64,000 nucleotides of DNA from a virus: IMG/VR virus record IMGVR_UViG_3300034378_000186, positions 16,793-80,792 of that record; one strand, written 5' to 3'. Below, one piece after another: positions 10,584-56,487 of this stretch. Position numbers and translations under genes: made by a program. The notes beneath the pieces were generated by a model, which had not been told where the DNA came from, ran no database searches, and was given only the letters and a program-made list of their open reading frames with translations. Each line of letters opens with the position of its first letter. Position 1 is the stretch's first letter.

Positions 10584-13500
10584 ATGAAAAGAATATTATT
10601 TGGTATATTGTTGATTCTATTAGGGGTGTTAGTTAATGCCCAAGATCAACCAGTTTTGGCTTTACCAAACAGAGGTGCCCCTTCTAATTCTGATGTGTAT
10701 TATTTAAGTAGTGCAGCAGGGACAGATTATAAGATTCAACATTCTGATATCTGGAATGATATTTATCAAAATTATGTTTTGAGATTAACAGATACAGGGG
10801 TAATTGATACTTCCTATTATATAATGATAAACAACGGAACTAAAACTTATAAGGTGAAATATAAGGTATTGGTTTCAGATCTTGATACAGTATTGTATGC
10901 TTATTTTGCTGGATATGCTTATTTTGCTGGATATGCTTATAATGTAGATACTGCTCAGGATAATATGTTTGTAAAAGATACAATGTTTATAAATTATGGT
11001 AGGTTACTTGATATTAAAGATTCAATAGATGTTGGATATTATATTGAAAGTGATTTTGTATTAAGTGATAACTTTTTCACAAATGGGGATTTTAAATTTA
11101 ATGATTCTTCTTGGTGGAATGGAACAGGGAATCAGGTGTTTAAGATATATGATGAAAGGGCAAATTATTTTCAGGATGGTTCTCAAGGTTTTCAAACAAA
11201 TCAATTTTCATTAGTAGATATTGATATAACAAAAGAACATTATTTTAGTTTTGAAATGGGTGGGGTTTCAAATGATCCTTTGACTTTACAATTTTTGGAT
11301 AAAGATAACAATGTTTTATTTACTAAAGTTATTCCTACTGCTTATACAGGGATTTTTGATACAATTTTGACTGTGACTGCAGATATTGAAGTAATGAATA
11401 TTCAAGGGTTTTCAAGTCCTGGAGCAAGTTTTTGGTTTGATAATTTTTATTTAAGTGAAAGAAGTTATAAACCAATTCTGAAATATGATACAACGGTAGT
11501 TTTTGAAAATATTCAATTTCAAAATTTACGATTGGATGAATTATTATCAAGTAGGGTTGGATATTTAGGTGATGCAATAGTAAGGGATACGATATTTTCA
11601 AAATTAGATATTGGAGGATTTAAACCTATTATTCCTTTAAATGAATCAAATTTTGATTCAGTGGGATTGTGGGATGTGGCAGGAGGTATTATAAGTGGGG
11701 GTAAATTTCAGAATGTTGCAAATCCTCTTACTATTTATGCAAATTATCCTGTTGATTTACAAGCAGGAGATTCAGTATATGTTGAAATTTATTTTGATGT
11801 AAAAGATGGATTTGGAGGGGGAAGTATACAAGTAAGTTTTAATACAGATTCTTTAGATACTATTTTTATTCCAGATAATTGGCATACAAATTATAAATGG
11901 GTTACAAGATTTCATACTTTAAATTCTCCTTCTACTCAATTTTCTTTTTCAGGAGTAAGGGAAGAATCATCTATTATGAATTTAGGTATTGATAGAATTA
12001 TAGTTGGTAAATATGAACAGGGTGCTGTTAGAGATTTGGCTTTTGATAAACCAATTGGATTAAAAAATGTTATTGTTCATAGTGATCAAATTTCAAGTAT
12101 TGAGGCGGAAAAGGTTGATGGTAAAGTAGATAGTTCTTATTATTCAGATATTGCAGGAGAATTATTAAATGGCCTTAAAGATGATACAGTTTTTACAAAT
12201 TATATTTTCCCTTATCAATCTGGAACTTCTTTAGAAATTGGTCATGATACTACTGAAACTGAAGTTTTATTTTCTGATAAATTATTGTTAAAAGGAGATA
12301 GAACTTTAGGAGATACAACAATTCAATTTAAAGTTACTGAAATTGAAACTGATTATACTGGACTAGAGATGTATGGTTGGATCTATGAGAATTGGTCAGG
12401 GAATGATGATCTTCATAAGTTTTTTGAGTGGGATGGTTATTATCATACTCTGATGATTGGTCACGAGGGGAATGATAGACAGTACTTAGATGTATCGGAG
12501 TTTGACTTATTGATGGGTGGACAAGATAACTCAATAGATCTTGGTGGATATAGTATGAGCTTAGGTGGTAAATCTAATAATATAACTACTGGATATTATA
12601 GAATCTCTATAGGTGGTAATAGTAATTCACTTTCAGGATCAACTACTTTTGATGCAGGGGCGATTATAATCGGAGGTTATGATAATGACTTGAATGGGAA
12701 TTCTGAATCTCCAATAATCATAGGTGGTAATACCAATACTTTAGGGAATGGTAATGATTACTCCATGATTTTGAATGGAAAAGATAATACAATCTCTGGA
12801 GATTTTAATACTTATAATACTATCATATCAGGAGAAGGTAATATACTTAGTGGAACTTATAACATAGTAGGAGGTTATTATAATTCAATATCTGGTAATT
12901 ATAATATTTCTACGGGTGGTGGTAATTCACTTGGTAGTAATTGCGACAATTCAATAGCAGTAGGGGAATATGTCAATATTGATAATTCGTATATTGGTAG
13001 TGCAGGATTTGGAGAAGAGATATTTATAGACGGAGAAGGTAACCTTGTTTCAGGTTACTATAATAGTATTACCGCTGATTATTCAGCCATAGCAGGTGGT
13101 AGTGAATCGAGTATTAGTAGTTTTGGGTCTAATTGTTTTATTGGTGGAGGTTATGATGCCAGTATTCAAGGAGGGTCTAATTGTTTTATTGGTGGAGGTT
13201 ATGATGCCAGTATTCAAGGAGGTTCTGGTAATTTTATAATAGGAGGAGAGGAGTTGCAAGTTCAAAATTCTAATAGTAACTATTCAGGAGTGATAGGAGG
13301 TTATCAAAATGTTTTGGATGATTGTGAGAATTCAATAATACTTGGAGGACAGGGGAATAATATAGGTAATGGTACTTATGAAGCTTTTTTGGGAGGTGGT
13401 TATAATAATGATATTGGGGGTAGTTCAGGATCTAATAGATCTGTAATACTTGGGGGAGATGAAAATCAATTAAATGGCGGGGGAAAATCTGCTATGATTG

Positions 13501-15207: not shown

Positions 15208-16674
15208 ATGAAAAGAATATTGTTTTTGTTGATATTATATCTACCATTATTTTTATATGGTCAAGATTATAGCGATAATAAGGTTATTGATATTAATCCT
15301 GGAGGTGGAGGAGGTCCTGACAGCACGTGGGTAACCATAACTACTGACACATTAAAAGTTAATGAACACCTGGAAGTCAGTGGAACTGCCACAATAGCAG
15401 AAATGGAAGTGACCGGCGCATCGTCGGTCGACGCCAACTTCTCGATTACCGGGGAGAACTATATGAGCCTCGACTATTGGTTAGAGAGCGCATTGCCGAG
15501 TTCCTCCAGTGGACCGAAATCCTTTATCGCGTCCAAGACAGACGGGGGTGGCAACCCTTATCTGTGGCACGTACAAGACCTTGGCACGTATAAGATACTG
15601 GACGAGTACTACTTAGAGGTGGAAGGTGCCGGTCTGGTGAAGTACTTCACACCAACAGGCACGAACGACCTGGCGGAGTTCGAGCTGTACTGCACGTACC
15701 AGATGGCCAAGGGACAGCCTGCGTACATATACGACCCTAGCGACAACGGACTGGACATACAGTACCCGTCGGCGACTGGCAAAAGTTACAACAGACTGCC
15801 GTGGATCGGCGTGTCAACGGACGGGGACGACGCTCCACGAATTAGGATAGATAGCGGAACGCTGTTCAGCCAGATGGGAATAAAGAACTTCAGCATAGAC
15901 GTGTTCGGTGACATAACGATACACTCGTACGGCGCGGAGATGGACTTCGCCAACGTCTACATCAAGAAGAACGCCAAGATAACGATAAGTGGCTCGGGCA
16001 AGTTCAAGTTCTACCGGCTCAAGACCTATTCCTCGACCGGGATAAGCAGGATGAACATAAAAAACATGGCTAACATGTACATAACTTACTTCTTGACCGT
16101 CGGCCCCAGCGGCATAGACTTGCAGATAGAGGACGGCGGGGTGCTCGACATAGGCAAGGGCGACGACAAAGTGGAGATTCACGTGGGATACAACTTAGGA
16201 ACGCCACAGAACGACGCGAGGCTCAGCGTCGCGGATTACAACAACATAGACTCGGTGGTCGTCCACGGGGACAGGTGCATAGTGGAATTAACGAACTGCG
16301 ACGCACTGGACATCAGACCCACAGCGGACGCAACGACTGTGATAGGAAACGGCAACGTCGTGAACGACGGAGGAACTAACAGCGTAATCCTGGAGGACAT
16401 CGCTGATGGCAAGATGCCGGCCGACACGTCTTCGCTGGGCGAGACCATACCCCGCATGAACGAGCTGGTGTACAAGCAGAAGGGCAACGGTATAACCACC
16501 ACGCTCTGGGCGAGTCCCGAGGAGGGTGACAACCTTGTGATAATAAACAGGGGCGGTGGCAGCAACACGATTTCGGGAAACGGGAACAACATCGAGGGGT
16601 CGGCGACCACGACGATTAACGACGACGAGAGCTTCAGCCTCGTGTACATTAACGGCGAGTGGCTGATATATTAA
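15208..16674 (+). CDS. GC-rich exported fibre-like protein, shared C-terminal tip
   Basis: A 488-residue protein. It begins with a signal peptide (MKRILFLLILYLPLFLYGQ) in AT-rich DNA like its neighbours. From about 15315 the base composition changes sharply: bases 15661-15720 are 60% G+C, against about 22-38% just after the stop. The last ~85 residues (TTTLWASPEEGD, RGGGSNTI, GNNIEG, GEWLIY) closely match the C-terminus of the protein at 10584 although the codons differ widely. Ile codons stay ATA-rich while most other third positions are G or C. The middle has strand-like, beta-helix-like repeats. Acquisition of most of the gene from a high-GC source is the simplest reading. Confidence 0.7.
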   Translation: MKRILFLLILYLPLFLYGQDYSDNKVIDINPGGGGGPDSTWVTITTDTLKVNEHLEVSGTATIAEMEVTGASSVDANFSITGENYMSLDYWLESALPSSSSGPKSFIASKTDGGGNPYLWHVQDLGTYKILDEYYLEVEGAGLVKYFTPTGTNDLAEFELYCTYQMAKGQPAYIYDPSDNGLDIQYPSATGKSYNRLPWIGVSTDGDDAPRIRIDSGTLFSQMGIKNFSIDVFGDITIHSYGAEMDFANVYIKKNAKITISGSGKFKFYRLKTYSSTGISRMNIKNMANMYITYFLTVGPSGIDLQIEDGGVLDIGKGDDKVEIHVGYNLGTPQNDARLSVADYNNIDSVVVHGDRCIVELTNCDALDIRPTADATTVIGNGNVVNDGGTNSVILEDIADGKMPADTSSLGETIPRMNELVYKQKGNGITTTLWASPEEGDNLVIINRGGGSNTISGNGNNIEGSATTTINDDESFSLVYINGEWLIY

Positions 16675-17495: not shown

Positions 17496-17590
17496 AACCT
17501 CCTAAAAAAGGAAAAATAGTAACAGGGGTAACGTTATTTAATATTTTACTTATTGCTGCTGTAACGGTGATAGGAGGTTTATTTATATGA
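17492..17590 (+). CDS. Small single-pass membrane protein, 3' end altered by transposon
   Basis: A 32-codon frame, MKPPKKGKIVTGVTLFN then a hydrophobic helix ILLIAAVTVIGGLFI. Its stop (TGA) is formed by the first bases of the TnpB element that starts at 17587. Joining bases 17586 and 19609 in silico continues the frame for eight residues (ERRVSDAV) to a TAG at 19634-19636, which gives a 40-residue original. Position in the lysis region and size suit a holin-like or spanin-like subunit. The short form may still work because the helix is complete. Confidence 0.55.
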   Translation: MKPPKKGKIVTGVTLFNILLIAAVTVIGGLFI

Positions 17591-17695
17591 CGGAGCGTAA
17601 AACCAATTCATCGCTTTAGCGTGGATTGGATGTAAGCGACTTACTCTTCACTTACATTTTGTAATTTTGTAAAAGTTTAGACTATTTAATAATAT

Positions 17696-19603
17696 ATGCT
17701 TAAAGGATTAAAATATCGCATTTACCCAACCAACTCACAAAAAGAGTTAATAGCCAAACATATTGGTAGTAGTCGTTTTGTGTATAACCTTGCATTAGAA
17801 ACAAAAAATACAGCATATTTAGGTTCTAAACATAACTTTTCTCCTTTTGATTTAATTAAGCAACTATCTGAACTTAAAAAAGAATATCCTTGGCTTAAAG
17901 AGGTTAATAGCCAATCTTTACAGCAAGCTATCCAAAATATGGATATTGCTTTTAAGAAATTCTTTAAAGGGGCTGGTTTTCCTAAATTCAAGTCAAAGCA
18001 TAGAGGAAAACAATCTTTTTCTATTCCACAAAATGTAATAGTAGAAAATGAAAAGTTAATTATTCCTAAATTCAAGGAAGGAATCGAAATTGTTTTGCAC
18101 AGACCTATTGAAGGAACAATCAAAAGTGCAACTATTAGTATTACTTCAACAGGGAAATACTTTGTTTCAATATTAGTTGAAACCAGTAAAGAGAAACCAA
18201 GTAAAGCACCTATTAAAGAAAAAACAACTATTGGTATTAAGTTAGGCGTATTCCCAAATATGTTTTCTACAAATAATTTTTCCGTTAGCCCATTGGCTAA
18301 TAGACGATGCGGAACTTCCAGTTCCTCTACTGGCAGCAGTGCAACTCTCCCAAACAGCAATGATTTCTCCTGTTTCCTTGCTTCTTTGAATGACTTTCTT
18401 CTTGGAAGCCGCCCAAGCAGCTTGATGCAGTTTGGATATATGCTCGGCACTACGTTTTGCCCCCTTATTGGCTTTAGATATTTTTCTTCTTGTTTCAGCA
18501 GAGTGCGTTTTTCCAAAAAAGCCATTAAATTCTCCAACTCTGGTTTTAGCGCGGTTAGAAATAGCAGCACATTCGGATTGAGTTCTTTTTCTCCCCAAAG
18601 TGCTTCTATGGGGTACGGTGCAAATATTATAGCCGAATTTCTTTTCGTTACTCCTAAAGAAGGAAATCCAAAAGCATTCTCTATCTTGAAGGCTTGCGTA
18701 ATCCTCGACAACTTCGATGATTTGGAAATCAAAAGCATCCCATCCGTACTTAGCAATAGCCTTGTAAAATGGAAAGTTGCTTTGCAAGTTCCTTTTTCTT
18801 CTGTGTTCAGCAAATCTAAGTTTGATATTGACGGATTGCCCAATGTAGCATTTACCGTTGATTGTGTTTCTGAAGATGTAAACTCCAGATACAGATGGGA
18901 TGTCTTTGAACCTTGTTTGCATATTGCAAAGATACAAAAAGAAAACGATTTAAAACCTAATTGTTCAAAAAAAGACTTAGGAATAAAATCGTTTTTAGTT
19001 ACTTCTGATGGAGAAGAAATTGATAATCCCAAATACTTACGAAAAGCACAGAGTAGATTAAAATATGTACAACGTAAATATTCAAATAACAAAGGCAAGC
19101 GCACTAAGAAAAAACTTGCTAAGCTACACGAAAAAGTAGCTAACCAAAGAAAAGATTTTCTACATAAAACCTCAACTAAACTGATTCGTGAGAACCAAAC
19201 GATAGCCATTGAGGATTTAGCGGTTGCTAACATGGTCAAGAACCATAATCTTGCACAGGCAATTAGTGATGTTAGTTGGTCAACCTTTGTTTCAATGTTG
19301 GAATACAAAGCTGATTGGTATGGTAAAAATATCTTACAAATAGGACGTTTTGCACCATCATCAAAGACTTGTTCTTGCTGTGGGTATATCAATAAAGAAC
19401 TAACACTAAAAGACCGTGAATGGACTTGTCCTAAGTGTAATTCTGTACTTGACCGTGATGTGAATGCTGCTGTTAACATTAAATCATTTGCATTAAAAAA
19501 TATCTTATCTGGAACGGATAGGAAAACTCGGAACGAACTGCCTCGGTTACGAGGAGTGTTGACTTCCGAAGCCCAACCCATCGGCTCTGCCGTGGGTGGG
19601 TAG
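17696..19603 (+). pseudogene. tnpB: tnpB (family A) interrupted at RuvC-I by an antisense homing endonuclease gene
   Basis: The N-terminal part (MLKGLKYRIYPTNSQKELI, LKEVNSQSLQQAIQNMDIAF, GFPKFKSKHRGKQSF) and C-terminal part (TIAIEDLAVANMV, CSCCGYI, CPKCNSVLDRDVNAAVNI) are a normal TnpB. At 18239-18973 a 735-base insert splits the RuvC-I motif between GI and DLGIKSF. The insert length is a multiple of three and has no stop in the tnpB frame, so a 635-residue reading frame remains open. A 245-residue junk insert at the catalytic aspartate almost certainly inactivates the nuclease. The other catalytic residues (Glu in IEDL, Asp in DRDVNA) and the zinc finger are intact. An uninterrupted protein would be about 390 residues. 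Confidence 0.85.
18242..18937 (-). CDS. GIY-YIG homing endonuclease with NUMOD motifs
   Basis: A 231-residue protein on the strand opposite to tnpB. The GIY-YIG core is clear: GVYIF (18-22), KCYIGQS (29-35), Arg41 in LRFAEH, and the catalytic Glu in LQDRECFWI. It is followed by NUMOD3-type repeats (GFFGKTHSAETRRKIS, GAKRSAEHISKLH) and a C-terminal NUMOD-like DNA-binding domain ending ICRKHIWEYA. Such enzymes cut an intron- or gene-free allele and promote copying of their own gene. Here it sits almost alone in a 735-base insert in the most conserved codons of tnpB. The start could also be Met6. Confidence 0.9.
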   Translation of the reverse strand: MYLCNMQTRFKDIPSVSGVYIFRNTINGKCYIGQSVNIKLRFAEHRRKRNLQSNFPFYKAIAKYGWDAFDFQIIEVVEDYASLQDRECFWISFFRSNEKKFGYNICTVPHRSTLGRKRTQSECAAISNRAKTRVGEFNGFFGKTHSAETRRKISKANKGAKRSAEHISKLHQAAWAASKKKVIQRSKETGEIIAVWESCTAASRGTGSSASSISQWANGKIICRKHIWEYA

Positions 19604-19671
19604 TTCACTGAACGTAGGGTTTCAGATGCAGTTTAGGATTAAAAAAAATAAATCTAATTCTTAATTAAAAG

Positions 19672-40033: not shown

Positions 40034-40433
40034 TAAATGTTCTAAATGTGGAAATAAAAGGGTAATTGTTAATAAGAAATATTATTTGTGTGATGAATGT
40101 AATTACTTTAGACTCCATGGGGAAACGAAATATGATTCATTTCGTAGAAAACAGAGGGAACAGAATAAGAAGAGGAAGCATAAGAAAACCGGGGAATGGG
40201 AATTGTTCATGGAAATATGGGCAGAAAGAGAACATAAATGCCATAATTGTGGGATAAGAATTTTTGTACCAAAACCAATAAATTTTATGCATAAGAAAAG
40301 TAAAGGGGCTTCTCCAAGTTTAAGACTGAAAAAAAGTAATATAGAAATTGTTTGTAGGGATTGTCATTATGCGTATGATTTTCAGGGGATGGATAAGTAT
40401 AACGAAAGAAAAGATTTATATGACGGAGCGTAA
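40017..40433 (+). CDS. HNH-type / NinG-like nuclease-like protein
   Basis: A 138-residue protein. N-terminal CSKCGNKR and CDECNYF form one zinc site. The second half has CHNCG, FMHKKSKGASPSLRLKKSNI and VCRDCH, the HNH/NinG-type pattern in which the His before a Lys-rich SPSLR segment and the following Cys pair frame the metal site. The last residues (YDGA) are encoded by the 51-base mini-element at 40420; without it the protein would end ...KDLYR. The insertion therefore changes only the tail. Confidence 0.6.
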   Translation: MEKVIDKCSKCGNKRVIVNKKYYLCDECNYFRLHGETKYDSFRRKQREQNKKRKHKKTGEWELFMEIWAEREHKCHNCGIRIFVPKPINFMHKKSKGASPSLRLKKSNIEIVCRDCHYAYDFQGMDKYNERKDLYDGA

Positions 40434-40470
40434 AACCAATTCATCGCTTTAGCGTGGGTGGGTAATTCAC
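40420..40470 (+). mobile_element. 51-bp mini-element of TnpB family A (hybrid LE-RE)
   Basis: Its first 38 bases equal the left end of the TnpB element at 17587 (ATGACGGAGCGTAAAACC onward, CGC TTTA GCG hairpin). Its last 17 bases equal the right end (GTGGGTGGGTAATTCAC, one difference). TTTAT precedes it. Removal rejoins the host frame as GAT TTA TAT AGA TAA. It looks like an internal-deletion derivative in which recombination joined the two similar hairpins, leaving no gene. Confidence 0.85.
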
Positions 40471-41260: not shown

Positions 41261-42507
41261 ATAAACTACCCATCGGCTAAAGACCGAATGGGTTTTAGAC
41301 AATAACTAAGAATGCAAAGAGCAATACATAATCTGTCTTTCAGGCGTGTTTATAGCCGCCCCAAGCAAAGAGATAACCTTAGAAGCATTAAAATCTGCAT
41401 CAATGGTATCTACTTCACAATTTGTGTTGGTGCATTTAAACACCTTGTTGGTTCGTTTTCCAATATGTTTACAAGAGCTGCACGTCTGCGAAGTATAGGC
41501 AGGTGGTACAACGATGCATTTCACACCATTAAGCAAAGCTTTGTATTCAATATACTGTCTAAGCATAGAGAAATTCCATTTACCAAGTTTAGTCCGAAAC
41601 TTCTTGTTTCTTTTTTTACTTGTAAATCGGATTCCAGTAAGGTCTTCAATAGCGATTCCCTTGCCTTGCTCCTTAGCAGATTGAACAATAGATTTTGCGA
41701 TAGTGTGATTAACAATTTGGGCGTGCGTTTTCTCCCTTCCCGAAAGCCTTTTCAAAAGTCGTTTAGAACTTCTTGTGCATTTGGACTGGATAGAACTCCG
41801 AACCTTTTGACGTTTTTCCTTATACCTATTAAGGGAGTTGTTGGTGTGTTTCTCACCATCACTTGTTTCAACAATAGATGTGATGCCGAAATCCACTCCC
41901 GTAAATTCGGAAACATCTTTAATATCTACATCTGGAATATCAACACATTGAAACAAGAAAAATTTCCCTTTCCTGTAGATAAGGTCGGCCTCCCCTTTTA
42001 TGTATGGAAGATACTTTTTGTTGAAACATTTAAAAGGTATTTTTTGTCTGCCACCAATACACCATATAGAAACAATGTCTTTTTTGTAGGTAAGAATCCT
42101 ACTGTCATAAGTAATTGCTCCAAAAGGCTTGAAAACACGTTTTTTCTTCCTATCAAGTTTATAAGCATCGTTCACTTTTGCGATGGCACGAACAATTACT
42201 TGTGCAGAAAGATTAGAGTTTTCCTTGATTTGATGGTAAACAAGTTTATGTATTTTGAACTGATTAAAAACTTTGTTTTCCCAAGCTATATTAGAAATAG
42301 CGTTGCAACTTTTATTCACCGATTTAATGGTGTTAAGGAGCATCTGTTTATGTTCTTCCGTGGGTTCAAGTTTTATTTTAAGAGTCAAAACCATAAGGCA
42401 AATATACAAAATATTTCTATATTTGAAAATTATTATTTAACCAAAGGGAGAGCCACTTTCCTCCCATCGACACTTTGTGACCAATGGGTTTCCGTGGCAG
42501 TTTTATG
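41261..42507 (-). mobile_element. TnpB-only element of family B, intact
   Basis: In the minus orientation, the right end is at 41261 (ATAAACTACCC, hairpin CCCATCGG CTAAAGA CCGAATGGG) and the left end at 42507. On the minus strand the left flank reads TTCAT, which on the plus strand is the ATGAA start of the exonuclease gene. The same layout is found at 43126-43176. There is no TnpA. Removing the element leaves a normal gene junction (...AGAAATTAAT then ATGAAATTTG). Confidence 0.75.
41306..42409 (-). CDS. tnpB: TnpB RNA-guided nuclease (family B)
   Basis: 367 residues, or 362 from the second Met (MVLTLKIKLEPT). All catalytic landmarks are present: RuvC-I Asp in TGVDFGITS, RuvC-II Glu in IAIEDLTGI, the zinc finger CSSCKHIG / CTNTNCEVD, and RuvC-III Asp in IDADFNASK. 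TnpB is an omegaRNA-guided DNA nuclease that cuts the empty site left after excision and so favours retention and spread. The minus strand has TATATTTG directly before the second ATG, which may give a leaderless transcript. In a phage it would act like a homing endonuclease on coinfecting genomes. Confidence 0.9.
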   Translation of the reverse strand: MYICLMVLTLKIKLEPTEEHKQMLLNTIKSVNKSCNAISNIAWENKVFNQFKIHKLVYHQIKENSNLSAQVIVRAIAKVNDAYKLDRKKKRVFKPFGAITYDSRILTYKKDIVSIWCIGGRQKIPFKCFNKKYLPYIKGEADLIYRKGKFFLFQCVDIPDVDIKDVSEFTGVDFGITSIVETSDGEKHTNNSLNRYKEKRQKVRSSIQSKCTRSSKRLLKRLSGREKTHAQIVNHTIAKSIVQSAKEQGKGIAIEDLTGIRFTSKKRNKKFRTKLGKWNFSMLRQYIEYKALLNGVKCIVVPPAYTSQTCSSCKHIGKRTNKVFKCTNTNCEVDTIDADFNASKVISLLGAAINTPERQIMYCSLHS

Positions 42508-54233: not shown

Positions 54234-55271
54234 ATGAAAAATATTTTGGGATTACTATCAACAGATTGGCACCTTAAGGATGAAAATACAGAACTAATTA
54301 AAGATCTGATTATTCAAAAATGTAAAAAAGCCAAAGAATTAAAAATTAAAAATCTTTTCTGTTTGGGGGATGTTTTAAATAGTAGGATTGCCCAAAGACA
54401 AAAGGTGTTATTGGCTTTTAAAGAAATTTTGGATATAATAAATGATTATGGATTGGAATTATATGTAATCCCAGGTAATCATGATAAAACAAATTATTCA
54501 TCCTATAAATCATTCTTAAATCCTTACGAAGGTCATCCAGCCTTAAAATTAATGAGTGAGGGTGATAAATTGGATATTATAGAAGGGATAAGAATTCATT
54601 TTATGCCATACCTGGAGGAAAATATGTGGCTGGAAGAATTTAAACCTGATCTATTGTCAAATATAAAGAATGTTTTACTGACACACATGGCATTTGAGGG
54701 TAGTGTTAATAATGATGGAAGTCTTGTTAGTACTCCCTTAAAGCCAAAATTATTTAAGAAATTTGATTTGGTGTTATCAGGTCATTATCATGATGAACAA
54801 ACTTTGGCTCCAAATATGTATCATATTCCTTCAATTTGCCAGGGTAATTTTGGAGAAGATGAAGTAAAAGGATTCACAATATTGTATGATGATCTGACTT
54901 TTGAAATTGTAAAATCTGATTTCCCTATTTATAAAAAAATATCTATTGATATTAACAAAATATCATCAAATGAGATTGTAAAAATGGCTGAAAAAGAAAC
55001 CAAAAATCTAAAAGATAATATTAGGTTTGAGTTTTCAGGGGATGAGGCAAAATTGAAGAATATAGATAAAAATTTCCTGAATATGATGGGGGTGGATGTT
55101 AAGATCAAAATTGCTTCAGTTGAAATAAAGGAATCGATAAAAAAAGTTAATCTGGAAAAAATCAATAAATCCCAATTATTGGATGAATTTAAAGATTTTT
55201 GTGAACAGGAAAAATTGGATTATGAAGAAGGTGTTGAATTGTTAAATGTGAACTACCCACCCACGCCATAG
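54234..55271 (+). CDS. sbcD: SbcD/Mre11-like nuclease subunit (gp47-like), 3' end altered by insertion
   Basis: From ATG at 54234, 345 residues. The phosphoesterase motifs are complete: D11-W-H13, GD46, GNHD (81-84), His151 in LLTHM and GHYH (183-186). It works with SbcC to process DNA ends and recombination intermediates. The last residues (after ELLN) and the stop come from a 214-base mini-element. Joining bases 55247 and 55462 in silico gives an alternative end IKVKIKRIGDNLKN and a TAG at 55504-55506, just before recA. The catalytic part is untouched. Confidence 0.85.
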   Translation: MKNILGLLSTDWHLKDENTELIKDLIIQKCKKAKELKIKNLFCLGDVLNSRIAQRQKVLLAFKEILDIINDYGLELYVIPGNHDKTNYSSYKSFLNPYEGHPALKLMSEGDKLDIIEGIRIHFMPYLEENMWLEEFKPDLLSNIKNVLLTHMAFEGSVNNDGSLVSTPLKPKLFKKFDLVLSGHYHDEQTLAPNMYHIPSICQGNFGEDEVKGFTILYDDLTFEIVKSDFPIYKKISIDINKISSNEIVKMAEKETKNLKDNIRFEFSGDEAKLKNIDKNFLNMMGVDVKIKIASVEIKESIKKVNLEKINKSQLLDEFKDFCEQEKLDYEEGVELLNVNYPPTP

Positions 55272-55461
55272 GCGATGGGTTGGGCTTCAAGGTTCATAGA
55301 CTTAACCAACGTTAACGCCTCCACTTGTTTTTATTTATACTCCGATTGCGTCCCAAAACCAGAGTTATACAAATATACAACAATTATTTCAAAATATCAA
55401 GCGGAAAAAGAGGTCGCTTACATCCAAACCACTAAAGATGGTTTGGTTTTACGCTTCATTT
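55248..55461 (-). mobile_element. 214-bp mini-element of TnpB family A with tnpB 3' remnant
   Basis: In minus orientation it ends with GTGGGTGGGTAGTTCAC and starts AAATGAAGCGTAAAACC after a TTTAT motif. Reading the minus strand, a remnant of the tnpB C-terminus (EAQPIAYGVGG, stop) is preceded by an in-frame stop, so nothing functional is encoded. Part of the left-end hairpin (GTCGCTTACATCC on the plus strand) is also kept. It sits between the last codons of sbcD and recA. The 72-codon forward frame at 55275-55493 runs across it and is not counted as a gene. Confidence 0.85.
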
Positions 55462-55509
55462 ATAAAAGTAAAGATAAAAAGGATTGGAGATAACTTAAAA
55501 AATTAGATT

Positions 55510-56487
55510 ATGGATGTTAAAAAAACTGTTTCTGAAATTCAAAAAAAATATGGTAAGGGAGCAATAAAACAATTGGGAGTAGAAGAAATTGTAGATGTTC
55601 CTAAATTCTCCTCAGGGAGTAAGAAACTTGATAAGGCTCTTGGTGGAGGTATTCCTTATGGAATGATTGTTGAATTTATGGGTTGGGAATCATCCGGGAA
55701 AAGTAGTATTTCTTTGATTGCAATTAAAGAGGTTCAATATGATGGTAAATTATGTGGGTATATTGATGTTGAACATACTTTTGATCCTGTATATGCAAAA
55801 TCTCTTGGGGTTGATGTTGAATCATTATATTTAAGTCAACCGGATTGTGGTGAGGAAGCTGCAGATATTACAGAGATGTTAATTAAATCTGGAGAATTTG
55901 GATTGATTGTAATTGATTCAGTTGCTGCAATGACTCCAAGGGCAGAAATTGAGGGGGATTTTGGTGATTCTAAAATGGGATTACACGCAAGATTAATGAG
56001 TCAAACTATGAGAAAATTGGTTGCTTCCTGTAAAAGACATGGAACAACAGTTTTATTTATAAATCAATTCAGGGAGAAGATTGGAGTAATGTATGGAGAT
56101 TCAAAAGTAACAACTGGAGGGAATGCTCTGAAATTTTTTGCTGCTCAAAGACTTGAAATTATAAAATCCAAAAATATTAATGAGGGTGATGATATTGTAG
56201 GGTATATTAACAGGATCAAGGTTAAAAAGAATAAAGTGGGAACTCCATTTAAGGAAGCTGAGGTGATATTTATGCTTGGTAAAGGATTTGATGAGGAGTA
56301 TAGTGAAATGAAGGAACTGATAGAAGAATGTATTGAAAATGGAGTTATTGAAAAAGCAGGAGGGGGTTGGATGAGTTTTAATGAATTTAAACTTGGTCAG
56401 GGAGATAAAAATGTCATTAAATTGTTAAATGATAATCCAGAATTAGTAGAAGAATTACAAAATAAATTACAGGAAGTATGTTCGTAA
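55510..56487 (+). CDS. recA: RecA/UvsX-type recombinase
   Basis: A 325-residue RecA protein with Walker A GWESSGKSS (58-66), IDVEHTFD, Walker B LIVIDSVAA (about 132-140) and the MSQTMRKL region. It lacks the long C-terminal tail of bacterial RecA. It drives homologous pairing and recombination-dependent replication with SbcC/SbcD and the RuvC-like resolvase. Its last codons overlap the sbcC start by ten bases. Confidence 0.9.
   Translation: MDVKKTVSEIQKKYGKGAIKQLGVEEIVDVPKFSSGSKKLDKALGGGIPYGMIVEFMGWESSGKSSISLIAIKEVQYDGKLCGYIDVEHTFDPVYAKSLGVDVESLYLSQPDCGEEAADITEMLIKSGEFGLIVIDSVAAMTPRAEIEGDFGDSKMGLHARLMSQTMRKLVASCKRHGTTVLFINQFREKIGVMYGDSKVTTGGNALKFFAAQRLEIIKSKNINEGDDIVGYINRIKVKKNKVGTPFKEAEVIFMLGKGFDEEYSEMKELIEECIENGVIEKAGGGWMSFNEFKLGQGDKNVIKLLNDNPELVEELQNKLQEVCS

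Follow-up and report, generated by a model that had tools for sequence, protein, structure and literature searches.

A TnpB-less IS200/IS605-type element with a predicted guide-RNA scaffold at the 3′ end of phage sbcD

The 214 bp between positions 55248 and 55461 of this phage DNA are an inserted IS200/IS605-type element that lies directly 3′ of a TTTAT motif and replaces the end of sbcD. The element, here called c3, is probably a non-autonomous, PATE-like IS605 element (PATE, palindrome-associated transposable element) that carries an omegaRNA, is moved in trans by TnpA and has a guide matching the empty sbcD site next to TTTAT. What appeared to be a transposon scrap offers a way to ask whether the guide RNAs of TnpB can persist and spread in its absence. 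Positions are those of the window, the whole 64,000-nt stretch analysed, which is part of an 80.8-kb metagenome-derived contig (the record). The locus comprises the following features.

54234..55271, plus strand: sbcD in its present form, 345 aa (PF00149), of which the final 7 residues are element sequence
55228..55247, minus strand: predicted guide ATTTAACAATTCAACACCTT, in the flank 3′ of the right end and antisense to the sbcD end; position by the TnpB rule (PMC10278001)
55248..55461, minus strand: c3, TnpB-less IS200/IS605-type element, 214 bp
55248..55364, minus strand: putative omegaRNA-type scaffold, formed by the 3′ tail of tnpB and the right end, with four helices; c3 retains 37 of the 39 consensus pairs
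55255..55285, minus strand: right-end (3′) hairpin GCCCAACCCATCGCC/GGCGTGGGTGGGT
55370..55377, minus strand: TATATTTG, Bacteroidota −7-like box just upstream of the RNA scaffold, with TTG at 55398-55400 (consensus match only)
55413..55461, minus strand: left end, matching copies c1 and c4, with the hairpin CCAAACC..GGTTTGG at 55424-55446
55462..55466, minus strand: TTTAT target motif directly 5′ of the left end, the predicted TAM of the empty site (from the sequence and the left ends of related loci)
55462..55506, plus strand: displaced native sbcD 3′ end (IKVKIKRIGDNLKN-stop)
55510..56487, plus strand: recA, the next gene, which directly adjoins sbcD in relatives

Insertion at the sbcD-recA junction

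On the minus strand, c3 reads AAATGAAGCG...GGGTAGTTCAC from 55461 to 55248, with TTTAT (55466..55462) preceding it. The left-end hairpin AAATGAAGCGTAAAACCAAACCATCTTTAGTGGTTTGG follows TTTAT, and the right-end hairpin is followed by GGGTAGTTCAC. Both ends recur within the window: the right end matches 19568-19608 (41 nt, 93%, E 3e-12 to 6e-12) and the left end 17594-17665 (74 nt, 78%, E about 1e-8). Three traits of IS200/IS605 elements were found, namely subterminal hairpins at both ends with no terminal inverted repeats, insertion 3′ of TTTAT with no target duplication and a clean join of sbcD, and related elements that encode Y1 TnpA and/or TnpB. No TnpA or TnpB domain was found in c3, which at 214 bp is too short for a transposase, as is typical of PATEs. 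TTTAT precedes 30 of 30 genuine left ends at related phage loci, against a background of 7% per 24-nt stretch. Seven further left-end matches lacking TTTAT were set aside as probable chance occurrences of GTAAAACC; five of these fall within tnpB coding sequence.

Joining 55247 to 55462 yields an SbcD that reads ...EEGVELLN-IKVKIKRIGDNLKN-stop in frame, whereas the present protein ends in ...LLN-VNYPPTP, read into the right end of the element. An earlier note, made from the letters of this DNA, had proposed both an insertion at TTTAT, by an element with a tnpB tail, and the restoration of sbcD by precise excision. Both proposals hold, the first as an IS605-type insertion through the matching ends in the window, the TTTAT motif and the sbcD-recA adjacency in relatives, although the restored tail past the junction has 14 residues rather than the 18 given there. 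Three bases (ATT) separate the restored stop from the recA ATG.

Searching phage records by tblastn revealed SbcD relatives in Cellulophaga phages phi13:1 and phiST, Tenacibaculum phage Larrie and others, and further relatives were added by profile search. Homology to the Cellulophaga proteins spans query residues 1-338, and residue 338 is the last before the junction, which bears out the boundaries independently of other copies of the element, as the note had maintained. In the Cbastvirus phages phi13:1, phiST and Larrie, recA directly follows sbcD with no gap; this is the arrangement that the joining restores, which supports an insertion. Single-sequence searches of viral and bacterial contigs returned no close SbcD relatives, and thus no true empty allele of the sbcD site is known.

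The sbcD product is a calcineurin-like phosphoesterase (PF00149), encoded beside an SbcC-like ATPase (PF13476). Across 18 aligned relatives, 0-10 unconserved residues with a net charge of −2 to +2 follow the last conserved helix. The loss to SbcD is therefore small, as only an unconserved tail was replaced, and the relatives do not support the view that a basic tail of functional weight was lost. The earlier note had named, as evidence against itself, homologues that lack such a tail and end in NVNYPPTP: the relatives indeed have no basic tail, but the VNYPPTP end is present in none of the 18. At the extreme 3′ end of its host gene, c3 illustrates how phage genes tolerate insertions at the cost of an unconserved tail. 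If there had been no insertion, VNYPPTP would be the native SbcD end and its similarity to transposon ends fortuitous. The length of the present protein (345 aa) lies within the 338-354 aa of its relatives, as that reading would have it; nevertheless, the end matches (E about 1e-12), TTTAT, full-length relatives of the element elsewhere, the sbcD-recA adjacency and the absence of VNYPPTP from the relatives leave it practically no probability.

A dispersed family of phage elements

The same genome contains further copies of the family.

17587..19608, plus strand: c1, tnpB element with left and right ends and an antisense GIY-YIG gene inside
40420..40470, plus strand: c2, end-only copy of 51 bp, left end fused to right end
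G000:C1 16563-16775, upstream of the window: c4, a second TnpB-less copy, 218 bp including TTTAT
L007 about 16367-16420, minus strand, upstream of the window: c5, end-only copy of about 54 bp behind TTTAT, about 140 bp from c4

The virus record holds interrupted or truncated tnpB copies, c1 among them. Scanning viral contigs with the right end gave at least 118 stretches, corresponding to at least 110 distinct sites. The matches listed include complete tnpB elements of ∼1.3 kb, tnpA+tnpB elements of ∼1.8 kb (L023 and L087), TnpB-less elements in two size ranges (200-219 bp and 250-361 bp), and end-only copies measuring 53-57 bp whose ends are the same as those of c3. Family members measuring 213-219 bp from left to right end occur in L023, L035, L037, L046, L081 and L105, and c3, which measures 219 bp when TTTAT is included, can be aligned from end to end with the 218-bp copy of L046 at 81%. 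The term remnant, used in the earlier note, does not fit an architecture of 218-219 bp that is found again in other phages. Judged from these alignments, c3 is one copy of a dispersed phage element family and not a private decayed remnant.

Several members resemble c3 or c4 closely. L087, divergent but complete with tnpA and tnpB, has the same ends as c3 and a c3-type scaffold. The relatives of c4 are L018, with a left end, and L019, without one; despite this loss, a 158-nt stretch of L019 that covers promoter-like box and RNA is 94% identical to c4. In L082, the same 361-bp TnpB-less copy is present at two sites, and tnpA is also present in phages with TnpB-less copies (the L023 and L035 records); together, these make mobility in trans plausible. 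An end-only insertion at a gene end is occupied in L073 and has an empty counterpart in L117. In contrast, an apparent empty site for L087 in L023 proved on extension to be an AT-rich chance match. A 34-nt match in the SbcC gene of Aeromonas phage PS1 was likewise attributed to chance, being short, inside a continuous coding region and without element ends. A 40-nt left-end string had no match in bacterial and archaeal genomes by an exact, strict search, which does not imply absence from hosts, and c4 had no blastn match in phage and plasmid records.

Three other arrangements were observed. The element at L105 5035-5164 shares its left flank with the L037 copy and its right flank with the end-only copy of L050, a pattern that recombination between copies at two sites would leave. 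In another phage, a c4-type TnpB-less element (L018 7456-7707) lies between an ssb-like gene and sbcD, just upstream of sbcD, perhaps by coincidence. In L016 (2969-4876), left and right ends stand 1.9 kb apart and enclose two phage genes, one for a RecA/DnaB-like ATPase, with no tnpB, representing either two fragments or captured cargo.

A covarying scaffold behind a promoter-like box

Inside c3, a spacer of 48 nt contains TTG-N20-TATATTTG; the final 117 nt correspond to the tnpB 3′ tail plus the right end. RNAalifold analysis of 11 TnpB-less copies predicted a four-helix structure with compensatory changes, in which 96.3% of alignment cells are paired and 14 of 39 pairs are changed on both sides; L105, which is without one side of helix 2, was excluded from this set. 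Covariation was 0.333; shuffles gave 0.145 and slid controls no more than 0.062. None of the shuffles reached the score, although shuffle counts are not probabilities because the aligned sequences are related. Some of this covariation may predate the loss of tnpB, that is, have arisen in TnpB-bearing ancestors.

In c3 itself, two of the 39 pairs are broken, one of them (48-79) through a change private to c3, and the scaffold folds with a z of −2.4. Its structured part ends at the right end, a trait of TnpB omegaRNAs. At pair 58-67, both bases in c3/L100 are different from those in L037/L046, whose layout is of the c3 type. On the strength of this predicted fold, c3 appears to keep a complete TnpB guide-RNA (omegaRNA) scaffold. 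Rfam, searched over the window with E up to 1, returned no omegaRNA family and only a sub-threshold CRISPR repeat; Rfam may hold no model for this clade. The c3-type scaffold tail is nearest to those of the TnpBs of L086, L087, L118 and L067 and not to that of the c1 TnpB.

The earlier note had described this part as a decayed tnpB tail with an internal stop. The tnpB-tail frame of c3 does contain one TAA, but the tail is at the same time the folded, covarying putative guide-RNA scaffold, and the stop is irrelevant if the RNA is what matters. The frame is broken in c3, L037, L025, c4, L018 and L019 and open in eight others; as it is broken in several copies, the frame alone does not explain conservation of the RNA part. 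An exact −7-like box was present in 6 of the 14 TnpB-less copies and TTG-N-TAnnTTTK in 9 of 14, by consensus match only; c3 has the consensus form TTG/TAnnTTTG. In L100, a c3-type RNA stands behind a TATGTTTG box with no recognisable left end.

These observations also bear on whether c3 could be a dead internal-deletion derivative, which moved once by means of its ends and kept its RNA part through recent descent from tnpB, with no RNA function. The two broken pairs would be expected of such a derivative, and the RNA-free end-only copies of 53-57 bp have spread too, so that the RNA is not needed for movement. However, when c3 is compared with its closest relatives, the RNA part shows 84-91% identity, the left end 70-74% and the spacer only 56-58%, the same layout recurs in several phages, L019 has kept its promoter-plus-RNA stretch without a left end, and pair 58-67 has changed on both sides. 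We consider a dead derivative possible but doubtful.

Alternatively, c3 might act in cis, through a transcript running antisense into the sbcD end or through hairpins that terminate or insulate sbcD from recA. The promoter-like box faces sbcD, the hairpins are stable, and sbcD and recA were adjacent before the insertion. As relatives of the element reside at unrelated sites, such a local role is not that of the family, and the covariation lies in the guide scaffold and not in the flank, making regulation in cis very unlikely as an explanation.

Supply of TnpA and TnpB

No TnpA (PF01797) was found in the 80.8-kb record; a co-resident element or the host would have to supply the transposition and nuclease proteins. 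All family-A tnpB genes of the record are interrupted or truncated, and its one uninterrupted TnpB (41306-42409) belongs to another group. This shortage of TnpA and of an uninterrupted cognate TnpB is also what a dead derivative would predict.

In c1, a GIY-YIG/NUMOD3 endonuclease gene (18242-18937, minus strand) lies antisense in tnpB (17696-19603), which it interrupts exactly at the RuvC-I motif (TIGI|DLG). Relative to the TnpB of L015, the insertion adds about 240 codons, through which the tnpB frame happens to remain open. Upstream of the window, another tnpB (L007 43-2955) is split by a 349-aa ORF with weak similarity to phage endonuclease I and is followed by a 194-aa ORF with no Pfam match that looks HNH-like. 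Together, the two cases suggest that endonuclease genes repeatedly invade tnpB in this phage. Elsewhere in the window, 13125-13220 is a perfect 48-bp tandem duplication in a long tail-region gene.

A model for c3

If c3 is a mobile guide-RNA carrier, a Y1 transposase (TnpA) acting in trans would have moved it in single-stranded form. The promoter-like box would then drive an RNA composed of the scaffold and a guide copied from sbcD. By the rule that the right end marks the scaffold 3′ end and the guide lies outside the element (PMC10278001), c3 is predicted to have the guide ATTTAACAATTCAACACC..., which is antisense to sbcD and would target the empty sbcD allele with the TTTAT motif. A TnpB supplied in trans could load this RNA and cut element-free sbcD alleles, recognising TTTAT followed by the guide match, and cutting would lead to restoration of c3 by recombination, either after excision or during co-infection. 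As a scheme for self-preservation this is coherent, with transcription, loading and cutting as its predicted steps. The analysis lists about ten distinct TnpB-less copies, each with its predicted guide, TTTAT motif and target.

Comparison with known systems

Viral CRISPR mini-arrays are guide-only units in viruses that use a nuclease from elsewhere (reviewed in PMC11656645). Their likeness to c3 is an analogy only, as RNA and nuclease are unrelated. Tentatively, and with some doubt, Bacteroidota phages might carry dispersed, protein-free mobile guide-RNA genes, each with one omegaRNA and its own promoter, that borrow TnpB from phage elements or the host and with it impose the element-bearing alleles on co-infecting phages, in the manner of one-spacer mini-arrays.

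Closer to c3 are the IS605 tnpA+tnpB elements L087 and L023, which have the same left and right ends and TTTAT target and, in L087, also a c3-type scaffold, whereas c3 is without both protein genes. Stand-alone omegaRNAs have reportedly been found for IscB, and PATEs are said to occur alongside TnpB elements in Geobacillus. In TnpB omegaRNAs, the scaffold stops at the right end of the transposon, with the guide located beyond it, and one TnpB clade has conserved 5′ stem-loops and a 3′ stem-loop (PMC10278001). The predicted c3 scaffold likewise ends at the right end with its guide outside the element; however, the omegaRNA of that study is processed from tnpB mRNA, whereas the c3 scaffold has no attached tnpB and a promoter-like box precedes it.

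PATEs, described in Haloquadratum, are transposase-free IS605 derivatives with terminal palindromes and no target duplication (PMC3119063), and a Halanaerobium PATE consists of 28 nt of left end, the last 58 nt of tnpB and the right end (PMC7290912), the same layout as in c3. PATEs and c3 are alike in having no transposase gene, near-terminal IS605-type palindromes, no target duplication and a presumed movement in trans, and end-only core-deletion copies similar to c2 are described among PATEs. A difference is that the c3 family resides in phages. The part that this family retains is a covarying putative guide scaffold, in many copies preceded by a promoter-like box; the passages of PMC3119063 and PMC7290912 consulted do not give this reading. 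Overall, PATEs are the precise match for c3, to which the phage copies add a covarying RNA and a promoter-like box.
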